From NCBI GenBank assembly GCA_021847485.1, contig JAJZRA010000009.1, forward strand, positions 1 through 44,277: a stretch of 44,277 nucleotides of DNA, read 5' to 3'. The translations under genes were made by a program, and so were the position numbers. This DNA comes from a bacterium (GTDB lineage Bacteria > Elusimicrobiota > Elusimicrobia > Elusimicrobiales > UBA9959). This document shows, piece after piece, positions 644 through 44,216 of the stretch (positions are counted from its first letter, which is position 1; every line of letters begins with the position of its first letter). A model generated the notes under the pieces. The model saw nothing but the letters and a program-made list of their open reading frames with translations, made no database searches and had not been told where the DNA came from.

Positions 644-853
644 GGACTAGGATTCGGTCACGCGTCGGCTCCTCGCCGTCGCTCGTCGCCGCCCGCGACC
701 CCGCCTCCCTGCTGCGGGCTGCTGCCACGCATAGCCCGCATAGCGGGCTTGCGCGGCCCCAGCTCGGCGATTTCGCTTACGCATGAAATCGCCTCCGCTC
801 TTGCGGACCAGCACCGCTGGTCCTCACCTCGCAGGTCCGGCTTTCGAATCCTA
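644..853. repeat. Cloverleaf-like palindromic element, copy D
   Basis: Short outer arms TAGGATTCG (648-656) and CGAATCCTA (845-853) enclose three perfect hairpins: 733-749 (7-bp stem, ATA loop), 766-793 (9-bp stem) and 805-823 (8-bp stem). On the minus strand the second has the loop ATGCGTAAGC and the third the loop GGT. Equivalent loops occur in the copies at 36584, 37732 and 44067 with unrelated stem sequences. The outer arms match the T-arm of the adjacent tRNA-Gln. The minus-strand frame across 658-909 is open but resembles no protein. No gene is supported between 548 and 925. Confidence 0.6.
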
Positions 854-22516: not shown

Positions 22517-22645
22517 AGGCCCGACAGCCCAGGCCCCCCTCGCTCCTGGCAGAGGGGAACCGTTGCGCGGTTCCCCCCGCCCGGGGAATTTACGGGCGGG
22601 TCCCCCTTCCCCAAAGTCGCGATGGGGGCCTGGGCTGTCGGGCCT
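22517..22645. repeat. Cloverleaf-like palindromic element, copy E
   Basis: Perfect 22-bp arms (22517-22538 and 22624-22645, AGGCCCGACAGCC...) enclose two perfect hairpins: 22554-22576 (9-bp stem, loop TTGCG) and 22576-22600 (7-bp CCCGCCC stem, loop including TTTAC). No T-tract follows, so it is not an ordinary terminator. It fills the gap between gcvPB and the lipoate transferase gene. It has the architecture of the copies in the pur operon but lacks the CACGGTGTG motif. I see no gene in 22510-22685. Confidence 0.75.
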
Positions 22646-33273: not shown

Positions 33274-34374
33274 ATGGAACGCGACCCCGCCATTGCGGCC
33301 ATAGTGATGGAAGCCCTGCGGCAGAGCTGCGAGGTCTTCTACCTCACCGACGCCGACGGCGCCATCCTCTACGTCAACCCGGCCTTCGAGCGCCTGACCG
33401 GCTATTCCGGCGGCGAAGTCCTCGGCAAGACGGCCCGGGTCCTCAAGAGCGGCTCGCATTCCCCGGAGTTCTACCGGGAGATGTGGGCGACCATCAAGGC
33501 CGGCCGGATCTGGCGCGGCCGCCTGGTGAACCGCCGCAAGGACGGCACCGTCTACGTGGACGAGCAGCGCATCTGTCCCATCAAGGACGAGACCGGCGCG
33601 GTCAGGTACTTCTTCTCCATCCGCCACGACATCACCCGCGAGATGCAGCTGGAGGACCAGCTCAACCAGAGCCAGAAGATGGAGTCGCTGGGCCTGCTGG
33701 CCGGCCAGATCTCGCACGATTTCAACAACCTGCTGACCATCATCATCGGTTCGATGGACCTGGTCAGCGAGGAGCTGCCTCCCGGAGGCGTCGGGGCCAA
33801 GCTGGCCTCCGAGATCCTGCGCTCCTCCCGGGAATCCGCCAACCTCATCAAACAGCTTATGGTCTTCGCCCGCCGCCAGGAGTCCAGGCCGGTGGAGATC
33901 CCGCTGAACGAACCGCTCAAGGAGCTCAAGGTGCTGCTGGACAGCCTGCTCGGGCACAACGTCAGCGTCGCCTATTCCCTCGCAGAGGATATTTCAAAGA
34001 CCCGGATAGAGCCGGAACAGTTCAAGCAGGCCGTCATGAACCTGGCCACCAACGCCCGGGACGCCATGAACGGCAACGGCGCCATAATGATCCGCACCTT
34101 CGAAGCCGGTCCGGAAGGGCTCCCCGCGGGAGTCCCGCCCGGGCGCTACTGCGCGTTCGAGCTGTCCGACACCGGCCCCGGCATCCCGCCCGAGATCCTG
34201 CCGCGCATCTTCGAACCTTTCTTCACCACCAAGCCCAAGGGCAAGGGCACCGGCCTGGGCCTCTCCTCGGTCTACGGCATCGTCTCGCAGAACGGGGGCC
34301 GCGTCATCGCCGCCAACCGCGACGGCGGAGGCGCCGTCTTCACGATCCTTTTTCCCGCCATAACCAGGGCCTAG
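33274..34374 (+). CDS. PAS-domain histidine kinase
   Basis: A 366-residue soluble kinase. A PAS domain (about 10-125) has [15 protein letters not shown] and ends [11 protein letters not shown]. The HisKA-type H-box is [10 protein letters not shown] (about 147-156), and the HATPase_c has [19 protein letters not shown] and [11 protein letters not shown]. The HDFNN form is common in kinases with PAS inputs. It lies alone between two pur units, and its stop overlaps the purNH stop tail-to-tail. Its partner may be one of the free receivers nearby. Confidence 0.92.
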
Positions 34375-36527
34375 TGCCTGAAGTGCCTCATACCGGTAAG
34401 CACCATGGCCACGCCCAGGCGGTCGGCCGCGGCTATCACCTCTCCGTCCTTGACCGAGCCTCCGGGCTGGATCACGGCGGTGGCGCCTATGCGCGCGCCC
34501 TCCTCGAGGGCGTCGGGGAAAGGGAAGAACGCGTCGGAGGCCATCACCAGCGTCTCCGGCTTCGGGTTCTCCTTTAAATAAGCCCCGTACTTGTGGCCGG
34601 CCATGAACACGGAGTCCACGCGGGACATCTGGCCGGCCCCTATGCCGACCGTGCGGACGTCGTCGGCGAGGACTATGGCGTTGGAGCGGACGTACTTGGC
34701 GGCGGCCCACGCGAAACGCAGCGCCGCCTCCTCCTTCGCCGTGGGCTTGCGCGCCGTGGGGACTTCCCACTTGTCCCCGAGCAGCCTGTCGTCGTCCGAG
34801 CTGACCAGCACCTCGTCGCCGACGGAACGCAGCACTTTCTGCCCCTTCGGGAAGCCGGACCACTTGAGCAGGCGCAGGTTGGCCTTCCTGGCGAACACCT
34901 CCAGCGCCTTCGGGTCGTAATCGGGCGCGCAGATCACCTCGACGAACCGCTTGGCCAGGAACTCCGCGATGCGCCCGTCCAGCCGCCGGTTGACGGCGAT
35001 GATGCCGCCGAAGGCGGACAGCGGGTCGGTGCTCCAGGCCCGCTCGAAGGCCTCGGCGATGTCCCCGCCGGTGCCCAGCCCGCACGGCGTCACGTGCTTG
35101 AAGATGACGGCGGCGGGCTTATCGAACTCCTGCACGGCCTGCCAGGTGCCGTAGGCGTCCAGGATATTATTGAACGAGAGCTCCTTGCCCTGCAGCTGCT
35201 CGAACGGCGGCCGCGCGTTCCGGGAGTACAGCGCGCAGGACTGGTGGGGGTTCTCGCCGTAGCGCAGGTCGCGCACCTTGTTAAGGGCGATCTCCAGCTT
35301 CCCGGGGAGGCCCGGCGCCGCCAGCGTGCGGGCTATCTCCCCGTCGTAGGCCGCGGTATGGGCGAAGCCCTTCACCGACAGCTCCTTCTTCAGCTCCTCC
35401 GGCAGCCCGCCCTTGCCGGCGCGCAGGGCCTCCAGCGCGCGCGGATAGTCGGCCGGCTCGGTGAGCACGGCCACCGACCGCCAGTTCTTGGCGGCGGCGC
35501 GGATCAGCGCCACGCCGCCGATGTCGATGTTCTCTATGAGCTCCTCGCTCCAGGGCGCGGCTTTCTTCGCGGTGGCCGAGAAAGGGTAGAGGTTGACCAC
35601 CACCATGTCTATGGGCTCGATGCCGAACCGGAAGACGGTCTCGGCGTGGGCGGGGATGTCGCGGCGGTAGAGGATGCCGCCGTGCACGGCGGGGTGCAGG
35701 GTCTTCACGCGGCCGTCGAGCATCTCGGGGAAGCCGGTCAGCGTCTCGAGGGCCCGCACCGGCACGCCGGCTTCCCTGAGGGCCTTGTAGGTGCCGGAAG
35801 TGGAGACCAGTTCCACTCCCTCGCCCGCCAGTCCTCTGGCGAACTCGAGCAGCCCGGTCTTGTCGGAGACGGAAAGGAGGGCGCGGCGCACCCGGCCGGT
35901 CTCCGGAAGGGGCCCGGCGATCTTCACCCGCCCCCCCTCCACCTTCAGGCGGCCGGAGCAGTAGAGCGCGGCGGCGGCCGGGTAGACGGCGTGCTCGGCG
36001 GCGTGCACTCTTTCGGCGAGGGTCTCCGGCGTGTCGCCGGGCAGCACGGGCACCGGCTGCTGCAGGACTATGGGGCCCCTGTCGTAGGCCTCGTCGACGA
36101 AATGGACGGTGGCGCCGCTGACGCGGGCCCCGGCCTCGAGCACGGCCTCGTGGACCTTCATGCCGTAATAGCCTTTACCGCCGAAGGAGGGCAGGAGGGC
36201 CGGGTGGACGTTGAGGATCCGGTCCTTATAGTCCGAGAGCATCTTAGGTCCGAGCTTGAGCATGAAGCCGGCGAGGCAGACGAGGTCGGCCTTGGCGCTG
36301 CGGCAGAGCATGGCGAGGTGCTCGTCGTAGTTGCCGGGGGCGAAATCCTTGGGATCGGCGGTCTCAACGGGGATGCCGGCCTGGCGGGCCCTGTCGAGGG
36401 CGCCGGCGTCCTTCCTGCTGGAGACCACGAGGGTTATCCTGCCGTCGATGCGGCCGTCGCGCGCCGCGTCCATCAGAGCCTGCAGGTTGCTGCCGCCGCC
36501 GGATGCGAACACCACGATATTCTTCAT
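34371..36527 (-). CDS. purNH: Fused GAR formyltransferase and AICAR formyltransferase/IMP cyclohydrolase (PurN-PurH)
   Basis: One frame of 718 residues. Residues 1-205 are Pur[15 protein letters not shown], the catalytic Asn-His in [16 protein letters not shown] and the Asp in [12 protein letters not shown]. From about 213 it is PurH: the MGS-like cyclohydrolase ([28 protein letters not shown]), then the transformylase ([31 protein letters not shown]). Both formyl-transfer steps are thus on one chain. The ATG at 36527 has a perfect AGGAGG site. The upstream frame runs into the palindromic element and is rejected. Confidence 0.93.
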
Positions 36528-36534
36528 AGGCCTC

Positions 36535-36726
36535 CTATGCCTGTCTTCCGCGAATTCCCAATCGTGCAAAATAAACCCGGGGCCGGGCGAAAGGCTGCCT
36601 TCGGAGGGATGTCGCGGAGGGTCCGGCTTGCGTAAGCGCCGGACCCGAGCGAACAAGGGGCGGGCACGGTGTGCCCGACCCCGGCCCGAGGAAGGCAGCC
36701 TTTCGCCCGCCCGCGCGCGTTCTCAT
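36535..36726 (-). CDS. Small open frame through palindrome copy A (doubtful gene)
   Basis: A 63-codon frame that starts 3 bp after the purM stop and ends in the TAG next to the purN AGGAGG site. It spans the whole palindromic element. The peptide is Arg/Pro/Gly-rich and unlike any family I know. It may be passed by ribosomes moving from purM to purNH rather than make a working protein. Confidence 0.2.
   Translation of the reverse strand: MRTRAGGRKAAFLGPGSGTPCPPLVRSGPALTQAGPSATSLRRQPFARPRVYFARLGIRGRQA
36584..36709. repeat. Cloverleaf-like palindromic element, copy A
   Basis: Perfect 19-bp arms (36584-36602 and 36691-36709) enclose hairpin 1 (36619-36646, stem GGGTCCGGC/GCCGGACCC, loop TTGCGTAAGC) and hairpin 2 (36661-36677, stem CGGGCAC/GTGCCCG, loop GGT). 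It lies between purM and purNH. It shares CGTAAGCGCCG, CCCGAGCG and CACGGTGTG with copy B, although the stems of the two differ. Confidence 0.8.
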
Positions 36727-36729
36727 GCG

Positions 36730-37698
36730 TCACTTCAACATGACCTCGTTGCGGCCTTTGACCACCTCGCCGATCACCATGGAACCTTTCAGGGTCTTCA
36801 GGGCGGTCCGCACGGCGGCGGGCCGCATTACGGCTATCATGCCGATGCCCATATTGAAGGAGTCCCACATGTCCTTCTCGGGGATATTGCCGAGGCGCTG
36901 CACTTCGCGCATGAGGGGCGGAACGGTCCAGGCGCCCGTGGCCACTACGGCGCCCATGTTCTTCGGGAGGACGCGCGGCAGGTTGCCGGGGATGCCGGCG
37001 CCGGTGATGTGCGCGAGGGCGAGGACGTCGTGGCCCTGCCGCCGGAGGGCGGCCCGCAGCCTGTTCACGTCCTTCACGTAGATCCTGGTGGGCGTGAGCA
37101 GGCGGGCGGCGTATTTGCGCAGCAGCTTCTTCCCCTCCAGGGCCTTGCGGACGAGGGAGAAGCCGTTGGAGTGGAAGCCGGTGGACGGCAGGCCGACGAG
37201 GACGTCGCCGGGGCGCACCTTGCGGCCGTCGAGGACCTCCGAGTTCTTCACTATGCCCACCGAGAAGCCGGCGAGGTCGTACTCGCCGGGGGCGTAGAAG
37301 CCGGGCATCTCGGCGGTCTCGCCGCCGAGCAGCGCCGACTCGCCCTGCCGGCAGCCTTCGAGGATGCCGTCGATGATCCTCTTGGAGCGCGCGAGGTCAA
37401 GCTTGCCGGTGGCGTAGTAGTCGAGGAAGATCATGGGCCGGGCGCCGCAGCAGACCAGGTCGTTGACGCACATCGCGACGAGGTCTATGCCGATGGTGTC
37501 GTGGCGGTCCAGCAGGAAGGCGAGCTTGAGCTTGGTGCCCACGCCGTCGGTGGAGGCGACCATGCTGTACTCGCCCCGGGTCTCGGGGATGGAGAGCAGG
37601 CCGGCGAAGCCGCCTATGGCCTTGGACTTCTTCTCCAGGAACTCGGTGAACTTGTCCGCCAGCCCGATATCCACTCCGCTCTTCTTATAGGTGATCAC
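36730..37698 (-). CDS. purM: Phosphoribosylformylglycinamidine cyclo-ligase (AIR synthetase)
   Basis: About 322 residues. It begins ITYKKSGVDI, then STDGVGTKLKLAF, GIDLVAMCVNDLV and the GGETAEMPGFY motif, as in PurM. It closes the imidazole ring using ATP. The GTG at 37698 is chosen because GGAGG lies 5 nt before it. The longer frame to 37746 would start within the palindromic element. The GTG overlaps the TGA of the small frame that crosses that element. Confidence 0.94.
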   Translation of the reverse strand: MITYKKSGVDIGLADKFTEFLEKKSKAIGGFAGLLSIPETRGEYSMVASTDGVGTKLKLAFLLDRHDTIGIDLVAMCVNDLVCCGARPMIFLDYYATGKLDLARSKRIIDGILEGCRQGESALLGGETAEMPGFYAPGEYDLAGFSVGIVKNSEVLDGRKVRPGDVLVGLPSTGFHSNGFSLVRKALEGKKLLRKYAARLLTPTRIYVKDVNRLRAALRRQGHDVLALAHITGAGIPGNLPRVLPKNMGAVVATGAWTVPPLMREVQRLGNIPEKDMWDSFNMGIGMIAVMRPAAVRTALKTLKGSMVIGEVVKGRNEVMLK

Positions 37699-37877
37699 AT
37701 TGTCCTCCAGAGACAGTTCCGCGTGCGCATTGACGCCCAAGGGCATGGGGACGGAGGGCCCTCGCGCAGGGCGAGGCTTACGTAAGCGCCGAGCCCGAGC
37801 GGGAGCGCGGCCACGGTGTGGCCGATAGCGTGCCCGCCGGCACCATGCCCTTGGGCGTCCTTCGTGCGATGCGTCAT
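37695..37877 (-). CDS. Small open frame through palindrome copy B, coupled at both ends (doubtful gene)
   Basis: A 60-codon frame whose ATG overlaps the purD stop (ATGA) and whose TGA overlaps the purM GTG. It spans the palindromic element completely. Coupling at both ends suggests that ribosomes translate across it. The peptide (Gly/His/Pro-rich, start MTHRTKDAQG) matches no family I know. Confidence 0.3.
   Translation of the reverse strand: MTHRTKDAQGHGAGGHAIGHTVAALPLGLGAYVSLALREGPPSPCPWASMRTRNCLWRTM
37732..37859. repeat. Cloverleaf-like palindromic element, copy B
   Basis: Perfect 17-bp arms (37732-37748 and 37843-37859). Inside are a CCTCGC/GCGAGG hairpin (37760-37776), the 12-bp palindrome GCTTACGTAAGC (37776-37787) and the hairpin CGGCCAC-GGT-GTGGCCG (37808-37824). 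It fills the purD-purM gap. The outer arms differ from every other copy. Confidence 0.8.
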
Positions 37878-39124
37878 TGCCCGATATCCTTCCTGTACTG
37901 CATGCCTTCGAATTTTATGGCGGCGAGGGCGGCGTAGGCCTTCTCCCTGGCCTCGTCCGCGTCCATGCCGACGGCGCTGACCGCCAGCACCCGGCCGCCG
38001 GCGGTGAACCAGGCGTCCTCTTTCTTTTCCGTGCCGGCGTGGAACACCGTCACCCCCGGGGTCCTCTCGTAGAGCCCCGTTATCGGCCGGCCTTTCTCCG
38101 GCGCCTCGGGGTAACCGGCGGCGGCGGCCACGACGCTGACGCAGACCCCGTCCAGCAGCTCCAGCTCCCGCCCGGACAGCTTTCCGTCCGCGCAGGCCGC
38201 GAGAACGGGCAGCAGGTCGCTCTTGATGACCGGCAGCACGGCCTGCGTCTCGGGATCCCCGAAGCGCACGTTGAATTCGAGCACCTTGGGACCGTCGGCG
38301 GTCAGCATGACGCCGGCGTAGATGACCCCGCGGAAACCGATGCGCTCCTTGGCCAGCCCGGAGAGGAAGCGCTGGATGACCTGGGTGCGGATGACGGCCA
38401 TATCCTCTTCCGCCAGGTCCACCGGGCAGACGGCGCCCATGCCGCCGGTATTGGGGCCTTCGCCGCCGTCGAGCAGGCGCTTGTGGTCGCGCGAGACCGG
38501 CAGCAGCAGCGCGCTCTCGCCGTCGGTCAGCGCCATCACCGACGCCTCCTTCCCGGCCAGGAACTCCTCCATCACCACCTTGGAACCCGAGAAGCCGAAG
38601 ACCCGCTTCTCCATGAAATCCTCCACGGCGGCGAGGGCCTCCGCCTCGTCGCGGCAGATGCGCACGCCCTTCCCCGCCGCCAGGCCGTCGGCCTTGATGA
38701 CCACCGGGTACTTCCGGTTGGCCGCTATCTTCTCCCTGGCGAAGGCCGCGGAATAGAAGACCGTGAACTCCGCCGTGGGGATCTCGTTGCGGTCCATGAA
38801 CTCCTTGGCGAACTGCTTGGAAGCCTCCAGCATCGCCCCGCGCCGGGACGGGCCGAAGACCTTCAGCCCCTTGGCCGTAAGGAAATCCGACAGGCCCTTG
38901 GCGAGCGGCGCCTCCGGGCCCACGACCACCAGGTCTACGCCCTGCGCCGCGCAGTAGCCGTAGACGCCGTCCTGGTCGTCCTGGCGCACAGGCGGGCAGG
39001 CGGCGAGCTCGGCGATGGCGGCCGAACCCGGGATGCAGTGCAGCTTGCCCAGCAGCGGGCTCTGCTTCAGCTTCCAGGCCAGCGCGTGCTCGCGGCCACC
39101 GGAACCGATTATCAATACGTTCAT
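37874..39124 (-). CDS. purD: Phosphoribosylamine-glycine ligase (GAR synthetase)
   Basis: A 416-residue ATP-grasp enzyme of normal length with IGSGGREHALAWKL at the start, VIKADGLAAGKGVRI and EFNVRFGDPETQ. It joins phosphoribosylamine to glycine, so it links the pathway to the glycine metabolism encoded nearby. Its start overlaps the purF stop (ATGA). Confidence 0.96.
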   Translation of the reverse strand: MNVLIIGSGGREHALAWKLKQSPLLGKLHCIPGSAAIAELAACPPVRQDDQDGVYGYCAAQGVDLVVVGPEAPLAKGLSDFLTAKGLKVFGPSRRGAMLEASKQFAKEFMDRNEIPTAEFTVFYSAAFAREKIAANRKYPVVIKADGLAAGKGVRICRDEAEALAAVEDFMEKRVFGFSGSKVVMEEFLAGKEASVMALTDGESALLLPVSRDHKRLLDGGEGPNTGGMGAVCPVDLAEEDMAVIRTQVIQRFLSGLAKERIGFRGVIYAGVMLTADGPKVLEFNVRFGDPETQAVLPVIKSDLLPVLAACADGKLSGRELELLDGVCVSVVAAAAGYPEAPEKGRPITGLYERTPGVTVFHAGTEKKEDAWFTAGGRVLAVSAVGMDADEAREKAYAALAAIKFEGMQYRKDIGQ

Positions 39125-40464
39125 ATGCGCTCCGTATACTTGCCGGTGAAGCAGGACACGCAGAAATCCCTGTCGCGCCCGCCGCCGCAGGCCTCCACGA
39201 GGCTGGGCAGGCTGAGGTAATGCAGCGCGTCGGCCCCTATGAACCGGCGTATCCCGTCCAGGCTCAGGCGGTTGGCGATGAGTTCGGCCTTAGTGGGAGT
39301 GTCTATGCCGAAATAGCACGGCGAGATTATGGCCGGCGAGGCTATGGCCATGATCACCTTTTTAGCCCCGGCGCGCTTGAGGTTCTTCACGATCTTGCGC
39401 GACGTGGTGCCGCGCACCAGCGAGTCGTCTATCAGGATGATGGTCTTGCCCTTTATGACGTCGCGTATGGGGGCCAGCTTCAGGTGGGCCGTGAACTCGC
39501 GCAGGCGCTGGTCCGGCTGGATGAACGAGCGGCCGGTGTAGTGGTTGCGCATGAAGACGGTCTGGTACGGGACGCCGGACTCCTTGGCGTAGCCCAGCGC
39601 GTAGACGGTGCCGGAGTCCGGCACGCCGCTGACGAGGTCCGCCTTCACGCCGGCGAGCTCGCGGGCGAGCATGGCCCCTATCTCGTAGCGGGCGGTCTGC
39701 ACGGAGCGGCCGGCCACCACGGAATCGGGCCTGGCGAAATAGACCTGCTCGAAGATGCAGCGCGTGAACTTCTTCGCCGGGGCGAACCGGCGCGACTTCA
39801 GCCGGCCTCCGGAGATGGTCACCATCTCGCCCGGCTCTATCTCGCGCAGCACCTTGCCCCCCGCCACGTCTATCGCGCACGTCTCGGAGGCCAGGATATA
39901 GGACTTGCCGAGCCGCCCCAGCACCAGCGGCCTGTAGCCGTACGGGTCGCGGGCGCCTATCACCTTGCCCGGCGCCAGGAACAGGAAAGCGTAGGCGCCG
40001 GAGAGCTTCGGCAGGTTCCGGGCCAGCGTGTCCTCGAGCGTGCGGCCGCGGTAGCGGGCCGCCAGGTGCAGGATCACCTCGCTGTCGCTCGACGACTGGA
40101 AGATGGCCCCCTCCTTCTGCAGCTTCGCCTTCAGCGCGTCGGCGTTGGTGATGTTGCCGTTATGCGCCACCGCCACGACGCCGAGGCAGGAGTTCAGCAC
40201 CAGCGGCTGCGCGTTCTTGATGTGGCTGGAGCCGGCGGTGGAGTAGCGGATGTGGCCTATGGCGTTGCGCCCGTCCAGCTGGGCCAGCACGTCGTCGTTG
40301 AAGACCTCGTTGACCAGCCCCATGCCGGCGTAGTGCCTGAGCGAGCCGTGGTCGTCCGTGACGATCCCGGCGGATTCCTGGCCGCGGTGCTGGAGGGTGA
40401 ACAGCCCCACGTAGCCTATCCTGGAAGCGTCCTTATTGTCGGTAATGCCGAATATTCCGCACAT
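39121..40464 (-). CDS. purF: Amidophosphoribosyltransferase
   Basis: A 447-residue protein. The nucleophile Cys is residue 2 (MCGIFGI) with no propeptide to remove. The PRPP motif is ILIDDSLVRGTT. Cysteines in TRCIFEQ, CYFGIDTP and the C-terminal CVSC fit the 4Fe-4S ligands of the Bacillus-type enzyme. It makes phosphoribosylamine from PRPP and glutamine, the committed step. It is 12 bp after purQ. Confidence 0.95.
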   Translation of the reverse strand: MCGIFGITDNKDASRIGYVGLFTLQHRGQESAGIVTDDHGSLRHYAGMGLVNEVFNDDVLAQLDGRNAIGHIRYSTAGSSHIKNAQPLVLNSCLGVVAVAHNGNITNADALKAKLQKEGAIFQSSSDSEVILHLAARYRGRTLEDTLARNLPKLSGAYAFLFLAPGKVIGARDPYGYRPLVLGRLGKSYILASETCAIDVAGGKVLREIEPGEMVTISGGRLKSRRFAPAKKFTRCIFEQVYFARPDSVVAGRSVQTARYEIGAMLARELAGVKADLVSGVPDSGTVYALGYAKESGVPYQTVFMRNHYTGRSFIQPDQRLREFTAHLKLAPIRDVIKGKTIILIDDSLVRGTTSRKIVKNLKRAGAKKVIMAIASPAIISPCYFGIDTPTKAELIANRLSLDGIRRFIGADALHYLSLPSLVEACGGGRDRDFCVSCFTGKYTERI

Positions 40465-40476
40465 GGTTTTCCTTTT

Positions 40477-41220
40477 TTATCTGACGTAGTCCACCGCGTT
40501 CTTGAAGAACTGGAACCCGGCCGCCTCGGCTTCGCGGGCGGCCGCCGGCCTGTCCGGGTTCTGCCAGGAGAAGAAGTTGCGCTCCGGGTGCGGCATCAGG
40601 CCGAAGCAGGTGCCCGACGGGCTGCAGATGCCGGCGATGTCGAGCATCGAGCCGTTGGGGTTCCGGGCGTAGGTCAGCGCGTGCAGCTCGCCGCCGGTTA
40701 TCGCCGCGAGCTCTTTCCTGTCCTCGACGATGAACTTGCCCTCGCCGTGGGCTATCGGCAGTTCGATCTCCTCCGGCAGGCCCTTCGTGAAGATGCAGGG
40801 GCTCCGGCGGTTAACCTTCAGCTTCGCCCACTTGGCCATGAAATGCCCGCAGTCGTTGGTATAGAGGGTCGAGACCTGCGCGTCGGCCCTGTTGGCCGGC
40901 AGGAAGCCGGTCTTTACCAGGATCTGGAAGCCGTTGCAGATGCCTATGACCGGCCGCCGCCCTTTTATGAACTTCCCGAAGTCCCCGGCGAGCCGCGCCA
41001 TCTTCACGGCGTAGATCTTGCCGGCGGAGATGTCGTCCCCGTAGGAGAAGCCGCCCGGGAAGGCCATGATGTCGTAATCCAGCACTTCCTTCTCCCCGGC
41101 GAGCAGCTGGTTTATATGGACCAGCTCCGGTTCCGCGCCGACGTACCTGAACGAATTGAACGTCTCGATGTCGCAGTTGGTGGCGGTACCGCGCAGTATT
41201 ATCGCCTTGGGGCTCTTCAT
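40477..41220 (-). CDS. purQ: FGAM synthase glutaminase subunit
   Basis: A 247-residue class I glutamine amidotransferase with the nucleophile in GICNGFQIL and the His/Glu in PHPERNFFSW. It feeds ammonia to PurL. Its start overlaps the purL stop (ATGA). Confidence 0.95.
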   Translation of the reverse strand: MKSPKAIILRGTATNCDIETFNSFRYVGAEPELVHINQLLAGEKEVLDYDIMAFPGGFSYGDDISAGKIYAVKMARLAGDFGKFIKGRRPVIGICNGFQILVKTGFLPANRADAQVSTLYTNDCGHFMAKWAKLKVNRRSPCIFTKGLPEEIELPIAHGEGKFIVEDRKELAAITGGELHALTYARNPNGSMLDIAGICSPSGTCFGLMPHPERNFFSWQNPDRPAAAREAEAAGFQFFKNAVDYVR

Positions 41221-43598
41221 ATCAGTTCCTTCTTCCAGCAGGCCTTCAGCCGCTCCGTGCCGGCGGAGAACAGAGGTTCCCCGCCGAGGAAGACGGCCAG
41301 GTCCGGCTCCTCGCAGACATGTCCCAGCTCGGCGGCCGGCAGGCCCCGGAGGCGCCGCAGGAACTCGGTCTCCCGGTCCTTTACGACCTCCAGCACCAGG
41401 CGGGCCGGGCTCTCCCCGAAAAGCAGCTCTACGGGCGTCAAGCCCTTCTCCGCGGGCGCGCCGTCCAGGTGGAGCGCCGCGCCCAGCCCTCCGGAGAAGG
41501 CCATCTCGGAGAGCGTCACGGCGAGGCCGCCCTGGGACACGTCGTGGGCCGCCGCCACGCAGCCGGCCCTAATGGCGCCGGCGACGGCCGCGTAGAGCTT
41601 CGCCGCGGCCTTCATGTCCAGGGCCGCCACGGCGTTGTTGCCGGTGGCGGCCAGCTCGTTGTAGACCGAGCCGCCCATGCCGCGCCGGGCGACGCCGGCG
41701 ACGTACACCGGGTTGCCGGGCTCCTTGAAGTTGATGGTCAGCGACCTGCGCACGTCCTCAACCGGGGCCGTGGCCGAGATCAGCAGCGACAGCGGGATGG
41801 GATATTCCCTGCCGTCGGCGTCCTTCGACTGGTTGTAGAAGCTGTCCTTACCGGAGATGAACGGCGCCCCGTAGGCCAGCGCCCCGGCCAGGCAGCCCTC
41901 GGAAGCCTGGACCAGGTCGCCCATCACCTTGGGGTCGCGGGGGCTGGCCGCGCAGAAGTTGTCGAGTATCGCCACCCGGGACACGTCGGCGCCGGCGCAC
42001 AGCAGGTTGCGAACGGCCTCGTCTATGGAATGCAGCGCCATCTGGTACGGGTCGATGCGCCCTACGGCCGGCGCGAACCCGTGGCCGACGGCGAAGCCGG
42101 CGTAGTCCCCGAGGTCCAGCGTGGCCGCCTGCGGCCAGATCACGGCCGCGTCGCCGGGTCCGTCGCCATAGCGGCCCTGCAGCGGCTTGCCGACCGTGCC
42201 GCCCTGCACTTCGTGGTCGTACTGCGTTATCACGGAGTGGCGCGAGCAGACGTTGGGATGGGCCAGCAGGGCCTCGAGGGCCTTGCCGAAATCCTTCGGG
42301 GCGGCCGGGGCCCTGGAGCTCACTTTCACCGCGCGTTTCACGGCCGGCTTCTCGAAGTTGGGCACCCCGCCGTGCAGGAAGGCCATCGGCAGGTCCACCA
42401 CCTTCTCGTCCCCGTGCGTCACCAGCAGGCGGCCGTCGCCGGGGAACTCGCCCAGCACGCAGTACTCGCAGTTCTCCGCGTCGAGTATCGCGGCGAGCCT
42501 CTTCAGTTTCCCTTTCGGCACGGAGAGTATCATGCGCTCCTGCGACTCGGAGACCCAGATCTCCCACGGTTCTATGCGCGTGTCCTTCAGCAGGGCCTTC
42601 TCCAGGCGCACATGCGCGCCGGTCTCCGAGCCCAGTTCGCCTATCGCGGAGGAGAAGCCGCCGGCGCCGCAGTCCGTCACCGCGTTATAGAGGCCGAGGT
42701 CGCGCGCGCGCATCAGCACGTCCAGCGCCTTCTTCTCGTTGACCGCGTGGCCTATCTGCACGGCCGAGGACGTGGTCTCCTCGTCGATATTGGCCGAGGA
42801 GAACGTGGCGCCGTGTATGCCGTCGCGGCCGGTGCGGCCGCCTATGGAGACTATCAGGTCCCCGGGGACGACGCGCTTCTCGATCTTGTCCACGGGGATC
42901 AGGCCGGCGCAGCCCACGTAGACCAGCGGGTTGAGCAGGTAGCCGTCGTCGAAATAGAGGCCGCCGGCCGCCGTCGGGATCCCTATGCGGTTGCCGTAAT
43001 CGCGCACGCCCTCCACCACGCCGCGCATGATGCGCTCGGGCCCGAGGGCGTTCTTGGGCAGCCGGGACTTGCGGTCGAGGCGCCCGAAGCAGAAGGTGTC
43101 GGTGTTCAGCACGGGCTTGGCGCCCAGGCCCACGCCGAGGATGTCGCGTATCACGCCGCCCACGCCGGTCTCGGCGCCGCCGTAAGGCTCCACCGCGCAG
43201 GGATGGTTGTGCGTCTCGGCCTTAAAGGCAAGCCCCCACTTGCCGGCCTTGCCGAACTCGACTATGCCGGCGTTATCCTTGAAGACCGACAGGCACCAGC
43301 TCCTGTTCAGCGTTCTCGTGGCCTTCACTATGGTCTCTTTGAAGAGGTTCTTATATCTCTTTATCCTCTTTCCGTCGCGGTAGGCCACCGGGCCGGAGAA
43401 GGTCTTGTGTTTGCAATGCTCGGACCAGGTCTGGGCTATTGTCTCCAGCTCCCCCCGCGTGGGCCGGCGGCCGATCCGGCGGAACTGGCGCTGCACCTCG
43501 GCGAGCTCGGCGGCGTTCAGCGACCAGCCGGCGGCCTTATCCAGGGCCTCCAGCTCGCGGGGCTTGAGCGAATTGAAGTTCTCGAGCATGTCGGTCAT
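41217..43598 (-). CDS. purL: FGAM synthase catalytic subunit (small-type PurL)
   Basis: A 793-residue protein, slightly longer than usual small PurL. It has TWSEHCKHKTF, KAETHNHPCAVEPYGGAETGVGG, TDCGAGGFSSA, ISGKDSFYNQ and AAHDVSQGGLAV, which are typical. It converts FGAR to FGAM with ATP. No glutaminase domain is attached; PurQ and PurS come from neighbouring genes. Start and stop overlap purS and purQ by four bases each. Confidence 0.96.
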   Translation of the reverse strand: MTDMLENFNSLKPRELEALDKAAGWSLNAAELAEVQRQFRRIGRRPTRGELETIAQTWSEHCKHKTFSGPVAYRDGKRIKRYKNLFKETIVKATRTLNRSWCLSVFKDNAGIVEFGKAGKWGLAFKAETHNHPCAVEPYGGAETGVGGVIRDILGVGLGAKPVLNTDTFCFGRLDRKSRLPKNALGPERIMRGVVEGVRDYGNRIGIPTAAGGLYFDDGYLLNPLVYVGCAGLIPVDKIEKRVVPGDLIVSIGGRTGRDGIHGATFSSANIDEETTSSAVQIGHAVNEKKALDVLMRARDLGLYNAVTDCGAGGFSSAIGELGSETGAHVRLEKALLKDTRIEPWEIWVSESQERMILSVPKGKLKRLAAILDAENCEYCVLGEFPGDGRLLVTHGDEKVVDLPMAFLHGGVPNFEKPAVKRAVKVSSRAPAAPKDFGKALEALLAHPNVCSRHSVITQYDHEVQGGTVGKPLQGRYGDGPGDAAVIWPQAATLDLGDYAGFAVGHGFAPAVGRIDPYQMALHSIDEAVRNLLCAGADVSRVAILDNFCAASPRDPKVMGDLVQASEGCLAGALAYGAPFISGKDSFYNQSKDADGREYPIPLSLLISATAPVEDVRRSLTINFKEPGNPVYVAGVARRGMGGSVYNELAATGNNAVAALDMKAAAKLYAAVAGAIRAGCVAAAHDVSQGGLAVTLSEMAFSGGLGAALHLDGAPAEKGLTPVELLFGESPARLVLEVVKDRETEFLRRLRGLPAAELGHVCEEPDLAVFLGGEPLFSAGTERLKACWKKELI

Positions 43599-44041
43599 AT
43601 TTTCTCTACCCCGAATTTATTCACGGTCTCGTTGACCAGGGTCCTGGCCACGGCGTGCTTAAGTTTCAGTTCGGACTCGCAGGCCACGTAGTAGGCGCGG
43701 CCGAAGCGCACGGCCCGGGGCTCCTTGCCGAGGACGTCGGCTATGGCGCCTTTCACGCTCTCCCCCACCACGTCGGTGACGGAGTCCTTGAGCCACACCT
43801 CCACCCGCCAGCCTTTCAGGCCGGGCCGGGGCCGGGAGAGCGAATAGGTCTCGGTGATCGGGTCGGTCAGCAGGTCGGCGCCGAGCCGGTCGAACTCGGG
43901 GCGGCTGAAGTCCGCCTCCACCCGGTAGAGCCTCGACAGCCGCGCGGCCTTCACCTTCAGCCCGGCATGCGCCATCCGGGCGATAAAACCTTCTTCCTCG
44001 TTCTTTGCGTACTTCTCTTTAGTCCGTATTTCGATTATCAT
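43595..44041 (-). CDS. purS: FGAM synthase PurS subunit, apparently a tandem double domain
   Basis: 148 residues, nearly twice the usual PurS length of about 80. The second half (about 75-148, WRVEVWLKDSVTDVVGESVKG... to VNKFGV) fits PurS. The first half (IEIRTKEKY..., VKAARLSRLYRVEADF, LLTDPITETYSL) has the same strand-helix-strand order and the PurS-like NPVIEDY-type ending. It may thus be a fused PurS pair. The ATG at 44041 has a GGAG site. Confidence 0.8.
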   Translation of the reverse strand: MIIEIRTKEKYAKNEEEGFIARMAHAGLKVKAARLSRLYRVEADFSRPEFDRLGADLLTDPITETYSLSRPRPGLKGWRVEVWLKDSVTDVVGESVKGAIADVLGKEPRAVRFGRAYYVACESELKLKHAVARTLVNETVNKFGVEKI

Positions 44042-44057
44042 ACAGTTCTCCGCTTGT

Positions 44058-44216
44058 TCAGAGCCCGGGCCTGGCGAGGGTATGCCTTCTCCGGGTACGC
44101 TCGGCACACCGTGCCTCGCTCACGTCGGTCGGCCCTCGCGCTATGCAAGCTCGGGCCGCCCGAGGCCCCTGCGAAGGCATACCCTCGCCAGGCCCCCGAC
44201 TTCGCATCTCGCGCAT
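44058..44216 (-). CDS. Small open frame through palindrome copy C, upstream of purS (doubtful gene)
   Basis: A 52-codon frame (MREMRSRGPGEG...) starting at an ATG with GGAG eight bases upstream, crossing the whole palindromic element and ending 16 bp before purS. Good initiation signal and position would suit a leader peptide. The Arg-rich peptide matches no family I know. Confidence 0.3.
   Translation of the reverse strand: MREMRSRGPGEGMPSQGPRAARACIARGPTDVSEARCAERTRRRHTLARPGL
44067..44195. repeat. Cloverleaf-like palindromic element, copy C
   Basis: Perfect 23-bp arms (44067-44089 and 44173-44195). Inside are the hairpin GGCAC-ACC-GTGCC (44103-44115) and a weaker GGCCC/GGGCC stem (44132-44156) around CTATGCAAG. 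It is oriented opposite to copies A and B: on the minus strand it reads CACGGTGTG. It lies directly upstream of purS. Confidence 0.78.

Follow-up and report, generated by a model that had tools for sequence, protein, structure and literature searches.

A family of extragenic palindromic repeats with a conserved core and variable, complementary arms in one clade of uncultured Elusimicrobiota

Miniature inverted-repeat transposable elements (MITEs), ERIC sequences and similar bacterial miniature elements keep their terminal repeats, the attC sites of integrons have conserved core sites in cassette arrays, and single-stranded DNA elements mobilized by Y1/HUH enzymes have strand-specific folded ends. 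Compensatory change between paired positions is commonly read as evidence of functional RNA. The repetitive extragenic palindrome (REP) is defined as a palindrome of 20-40 bp (PMC3733652). Template switching is reported to homogenize the arms of inverted repeats and invert the spacer between them (PMC8604942), and both to create and to maintain hairpins (PMC8794818). Here we analyze a palindromic element, type I, in a window that is the whole of contig JAJZRA010000009.1 (44,277 nucleotides, forward strand) of the Elusimicrobiales assembly GCA_021847485.1 (2.2 Mb, 122 contigs, 83% complete). Type I is a non-coding interspersed repeat of ~126 bases, present in multiple copies and restricted to one uncultured clade of Elusimicrobiota; no published description of it was found among the matches listed from the open-licence literature.

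The predicted fold of type I is a three-way junction, with an outer stem (P1), a hairpin (P2) containing CTTGCGTAAGCG and a second hairpin (P3) containing CACGGTGTG. A preliminary description of the window had reported three cloverleaf-like palindromes with motifs in common, here copies A, B and C, and their coordinates and motifs proved correct. Bit scores below come from a covariance model, R1, built from 16 aligned copies (126 positions, 44 pairs); A, B and C are three of these training copies, so that their R1 scores are not independent.

36584-36709, plus strand: copy A, type I cloverleaf; R1 138.8 bits, folding z-score -7.9; in the purM/purN-purH intergenic spacer, antisense to both, 20 nt beyond the purM stop
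36627-36641, plus strand: P2 hairpin core motif CTTGCGTAAGCGCCG of copy A
36665-36673, plus strand: P3 hairpin motif CACGGTGTG of copy A, strongly conserved across 126 copies
37732-37859, plus strand: copy B, type I cloverleaf; R1 95.1 bits at 37734-37857, folding z-score -6.7; in the purD/purM intergenic spacer, antisense to both, 14 nt beyond the purD stop
37812-37820, plus strand: P3 hairpin motif CACGGTGTG of copy B
44067-44195, minus strand: copy C, type I cloverleaf; R1 88.3 bits at 44071-44191, folding z-score -7.4; 5' of purS and sense to it, close to the contig end
44105-44113, minus strand: P3 hairpin motif CACGGTGTG of copy C

When the 41 inverted repeats of the window were ranked, C came first (arms 44067-44095/44167-44195), a palindrome at 22517-22645 second, B third (37732-37759/37832-37859) and A fourth (36578-36602/36691-36715). 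None of 200 shuffles folded as stably as A, B or C. CACGGTGTG occurs three times in the window, once in each copy, against an expectation of 0.22 (1 of 100 shuffles reached three), and CGTAAGCGCCG, common to A and B, occurs twice against an expectation of 0.03, a number matched in none of 100 shuffles.

Support for type I that is independent of R1 training comes from the count of the core motif in the genome and from matches in other genomes. The 15-base core pattern CTTRCGTAAGCGCCG, with at most one mismatch, occurs at 23 places in the genome, compared with one for the reversed control, and R1 matches cover 22 of them (the exception is L022). The model itself gives 43 matches in this genome at E≤0.1, of which 38 have E≤2.1e-6. 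At E≤1e-3 it matches all 25 genomes of the genus, with counts from 6 to at least 83 per genome (the upper value is capped by the 85 candidates scored in each), and none of 16 genomes in another family of the same order. A search for further copies, as the preliminary description had proposed, thus found them, both in the genome itself and, with variable and covarying arms (below), across the genus. In a scan of the phylum at E≤1e-5, with strict filters and ten candidates scored per genome, 45 of 340 genomes were matched, all from five genera of one family: 32 of 32 in the same genus and 13 of 13 in four other genera, with none of 14 genomes from eight more genera of that family and none of 281 elsewhere in the phylum. 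With more candidates scored, two genomes examined closely, G018 and G042, yielded 99 and 85 copies. The core pattern was also found in at least 114 stretches of a genome collection; among the 114 matches listed, all were titled Elusimicrobia, Elusimicrobiales, Elusimicrobiota or unassigned 'bacterium isolate', and viral contigs gave no match to the pattern. Numerous contigs terminate in or beside palindromes (G000 C17, C102, C112, C113 and C115; G042 C19, C24, C36, C37, C40 and C46), suggesting breaks in assembly at these sites, so that the copy numbers would be minimum estimates.

We counted paired changes in two alignments. The 16-copy alignment has a consensus of 44 pairs, 27 of which show changes at both partners in one or more copies. 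In a larger set of 126 copies, from 100 of the 114 listed loci, 92.2% of cells are paired (65.5% in shuffled data), and 40 of the 44 pairs are altered on both sides yet keep their pairing in one copy or more. The covariation score is 0.556, compared with 0.140 for shuffled and at most 0.095 for slid alignments. These values lean toward the model because the alignment was fitted to it; long complementary arms are seen too in arm alignments made without the model. All 19 pairs of P1 covary, and the most conserved columns are P2 GCTTGCGTAAGCG and P3 CACGGTGTG. The claim that pairing is kept while sequence changes therefore stands, as does the claim that no named family fits: Rfam 15 gave only three tRNAs above threshold in the window, and three matches at E≤0.5 in seven loci, all under the gathering threshold, with one sub-threshold mir-B6 match (33.2 of 89 bits) overlying the type I copy in L055.

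The arms and the core evolve at different rates. Within the genome of the window, mean divergence is 48.3% in the arms and 20.5% in the core (30 copies, 435 comparisons), and within the main subtype 32.3% and 8.2% (16 copies, 120 comparisons, motif columns excluded); a preceding count with copies picked by the core motif, including the out-of-register L038, gave 36.5% and 7.4% (18 of 20 copies, 153 comparisons). Copies L034 and L039, for example, differ at 22 of 38 arm positions and at 4 of 85 core positions. The arms had been described as unrelated between copies: they are indeed strongly variable, but across the family many share a GGCAAGGGTATGG-like stem, in which divergence has proceeded one pair at a time. 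Among double changes in P1 the share of transitions is 0.33, as expected if all other pair types are equally likely, and register shifts in the alignment would bias this share in the same direction. Smaller palindromes are nested in some hairpins (P2 of L035, L036, L039, L043, L010 and L023; P3 of L040; both in L051) and look as if they had been inserted into the loops.

The outer arms also carry a strand signal. We counted G.T and A.C mismatches in 242 of 254 copies, leaving out 12 that were short or weakly paired, and confined the count to the outer arms because wobble columns conserved near the inner end of P1 raise the number of G.T. On the element strand the ratio of G.T to A.C is 146:84 overall, 107:30 in the 13 outermost modelled positions and 39:54 in the 14 nt beyond the model; over the whole stretch it is alike for copies sense (39:22) and antisense (54:28) to their genes. 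Because the excess lies inside the modelled arms, is absent outside them and is independent of gene orientation, it may point, with moderate strength, to a strand-specific fold that is a property of the element rather than of the host transcript; the ratios come from related copies under a model that permits G-U, and a bias of this sign could also arise from C-to-T damage to a single strand. Flank profiles of the 254 copies (246 upstream, 244 downstream) show a GGAGGG-like box at the 5' foot (-6 to -1) and a C-rich tract at the 3' foot (+1 to +6). They show no GTAG or CGTC tag, no promoter-like conservation upstream beyond the short G-rich foot, and no conserved T-rich stretch directly 3' of the stem. 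Some copies extend into CGACTTGGCATCTCGCGG-like sequence.

Type I is extragenic and lies mostly shortly 3' of stop codons, in either orientation. With gene contexts from a simple in-house gene caller, 190 copies were placed as follows: 55 share the strand of both neighboring genes and 59 lie on the opposite one, 33 are between convergent and 9 between divergent genes, 33 are at a locus edge, and a single copy overlaps a gene. Thus 147 of the 156 copies flanked by genes on both sides sit between tandem or convergent genes. Of the 254 copies (a set de-duplicated by flanks, in which at least one place, entered as both L079 and L116, remains as a duplicate), 172 are single, and 136 of these adjoin a gene 3' end, at a median distance of 27 nt and with 109 within 60 nt. 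Beside copy A, one open reading frame at 34371-36524 (minus strand) matches a formyltransferase (PurN-like), MGS and AICARFT/IMPCHase (PurH-like), an apparent PurN-PurH fusion.

Where two type I copies lie less than 400 bp apart, their arrangement is invariant: in all 41 such pairs the 5' ends face each other, with 11-160 nt between them. The doublets differ in their spacers (39 listed, with two longer ones included by count). The doublets occur in tandem (21), convergent (11) and divergent (3) gene contexts, with 6 at an edge, so gene orientation fails to explain the head-to-head rule. The same rule extends to a second cloverleaf family, type II, which has TTGGGGA(A/G)GGG plus a GGAACCGCGCAACGGTTCC-like hairpin; its arms, too, are variable and complementary. 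The palindrome ranked second in the window belongs to it, and a single family for all palindromes of the window is not supported.

22517-22645, minus strand: type II cloverleaf with core TTGGGGAAGGG...GGAACCGCGCAACGGTTCC, flanked by glycine-dehydrogenase-like and lipoate-ligase-like genes; training copy of model R2
Beyond the window: type II copies in loci L080, L088, L090, L091, L093, L096, L126, L134, L147 and L174

Model R2, built from 11 training copies including that of the window, matched 23 of 25 genus genomes with 1-75 copies per genome, training copies counted in. In 193 of the loci it gave 15 matches, two of them duplicates, and hence 13 distinct type II places. All six type I/type II neighbors within 100 nt are head to head (L062, L076, L079, L080, L126 and L138). 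Type I thus pairs head to head with other type I copies as well as with type II, and a rule common to two cloverleaf families points to a recognition or joining activity.

A further palindrome had been assigned to the same family. This assignment is not established: the region labelled type III scores no higher with R1 than copy C read on the wrong strand (37.2 bits), and its motif GCGTAAGCG is near chance, with two occurrences in the window against an expectation of 0.62 (10 of 100 shuffles reach two).

644-853, minus strand: composite palindrome adjoining tRNA genes; 711-820 (minus strand) scores 37.1 bits with R1

Nearby, at 550-576, lies GGGGTCAGGTCTTAAATCTTGATTTA, which we take to resemble sequences near Y1-type transposase genes.

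Comparison of shared gene junctions shows that type I copies are replaced or re-inserted over time, because the same junction often carries clearly different sequences in different species. Across 23 genomes, type I occupies the purD-purM spacer in three and the purM-purN spacer in seven (in L087 the contig end truncates it). The purM-purN spacer has type II in five genomes and a third type in one, and in the remaining genomes it is short, shows a possible remnant or is cut. One junction carries a clearly different element in each of five genomes (L034, L066, L181, L168 and L207). Among the 24 junction groups at which single type I copies recur in at least two genomes each (a raw count), most hold clearly different elements, as judged by eye, and 32 of 50 pairs of single copies agree in orientation, these pairs being non-independent. 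Since most shared junctions hold different elements, an ortholog comparison of arm inheritance cannot separate template switching from replacement. The variable arms had been taken to exclude a mobile or interspersed element; this turnover of subtypes and the doublets instead look like those of REPINs, the inverted REP doublets.

G018 and G042 are ~90% identical over nine blocks of 79-93%, and of five sites compared between them one shares 113 identical nt, one is inverted and different, two are different and one is not comparable. In one arm pair of the doublet L120/L277, several positions differ on both sides with pairing retained, and the same holds for the arms of L101/L103 in a purM spacer (G001/G010). 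Apparent inversions of the core between similar arms were found at G018:C25:42192 and in L175/L201. Clean pairs of filled and empty sites were found only for other cloverleaf inserts. One of these, at L239:14690-14990 in G042, is ~267 nt long with 31-bp perfect arms, lies at a stop codon and is absent from the counterpart site in G018; three insert copies in G042 (L239, L292 and L295) have differing arms with partly matching changes. A pre-existing hairpin as the insertion target is unsupported in this one case (L239), the G018 counterpart site having no hairpin.

How can the arms vary so widely and still pair? On balance, we lean toward the reading that type I is an extragenic repeat of REP/REPIN-like character, in which the core is conserved and the arms are kept complementary by template-switch repair, by selection on the fold, or by both. 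Under such a mechanism the core and hairpin loops would form the recognition site of a trans-acting protein, which may spread or homogenize copies as a folded single strand. The outer arms would carry no sequence message and serve a structural role. Template switching between the arms during replication could restore an arm by using its partner as template, and could also invert the core; unpaired arms would probably be selected against as well. The preliminary description had already suggested template switching, which fits the near-random pair types of P1 and the apparent core inversions. The trans-acting factor is added since template switching leaves core conservation, clade-wide spread, the doublet rule and the strand bias unexplained.

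Several observations weigh against this reading. Single copies recur at the 24 junction groups, and at site 51517 the 113 nt are identical in G018 and G042 with flanks that differ by 17% and 7%, a pattern that would be compatible with function in place or with gene conversion. No clean empty site of type I was found in a close genome pair, and mixed type I/type II doublets speak against a fixed mobile doublet unit. Searches for Y1 transposase (PF01797), which the preliminary description had named as a possible recognizing protein, revealed no mobilizing protein: the protein was undetected in 7 of the 45 genomes with type I copies and was found in 11 of 14 genomes of the bacterial family that lack them, and none of 10 Y1 loci has a type I copy within ~1.5 kb or before the contig end. 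Across 31 genus genomes, 59 family genomes and these 10 loci, Y1/RAYT showed no link to type I as a mobilizing partner, and its presence did not track that of type I in the 59 family genomes.

A more elaborate account, which we think unlikely as a whole, is a folded-single-strand element whose core would be inherited faithfully and whose arms would be made anew by foldback copying in every event; head-to-head joining would extend across families, with several families sharing the gene-end niche in one clade. Similarly doubtful is a host element at mRNA 3' ends (a stabilizer, terminator aid or nucleoid-protein site), which would act as a barrier to proteins or nucleases, be selected in place and work in both orientations through its near-palindromic fold. 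Such an element would account for the bias of copies to gene 3' ends, for the unusual conservation of site 51517 and for the recurrence at 24 junction groups. However, the same spacer is often element-free in relatives, and both sequence and orientation vary at shared junctions, as the 32 of 50 concordant pairs illustrate; A and B lie between same-strand pur genes, where a strong terminator would be polar, and the stem is not directly followed by a conserved T-rich stretch.

We consider it quite improbable that the covariation reflects no function, that is, that the inverted repeats are made and kept perfect solely by replication template switching and spread by recombination. The P1 pair types are near random, cores appear inverted between similar arms (G018:C25:42192; L175/L201), and the published effects of template switching on arms, spacers and hairpins (PMC8604942, PMC8794818) are of this kind; yet such a process leaves unexplained a core and loops conserved across five genera, the head-to-head rule, and a G.T excess of 107:30 in the modelled arms as opposed to 39:54 outside. 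A free-standing, multi-copy structured RNA gene (riboswitch, ribozyme or small RNA) is very improbable: the predicted three-way junction, the near-complete covariation and the GUAA-like loop and G-A internal loops read from the alignment would suit it, but type I has no orientation bias to genes, no promoter-like conservation upstream (246 copies) and no Rfam match above threshold, and is confined to one clade with up to ~100 copies.

Type I is thus a natural system, with up to ~100 copies per genome in many species, in which fold selection and template-switch repair could be separated by direct comparison, because core and arms evolve at different rates. Compared with known systems, it resembles MITEs and ERIC sequences in being short, non-coding and interspersed, but its outer stem is more variable than its core. 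Mitochondrial double-hairpin and GC-cluster elements are likewise palindromic and described as mobile, but they are organellar. Hairpins maintained by template switching share with type I multibase compensatory changes, homogenized arms and inverted spacers (PMC8794818, PMC8604942); these, however, are products of a mutation process rather than a repeat family, and that process neither conserves a core nor orients neighbors. In location and pairing, type I is like REP/REPIN (PMC3733652, PMC3116915). Like REPs, type I lies 3' of genes, between tandem or convergent ones (147 of 156 copies), and like REPINs it forms inverted doublets (41 of 41 neighbors under 400 bp), yet 172 of 254 copies are single. 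It differs in being a three-way junction of ~126 nt rather than a palindrome of 20-40 bp, in lacking an unpaired GTAG/CGTC end tag in its flank profiles, in an outer stem that covaries at all 19 pairs, in doublets that may mix two families, and in showing no tie to the RAYT (Y1) transposase in our searches. Because the size, tag and RAYT features fail, we do not file type I as REP, and name it instead a variant of the extragenic palindromic repeat kind.
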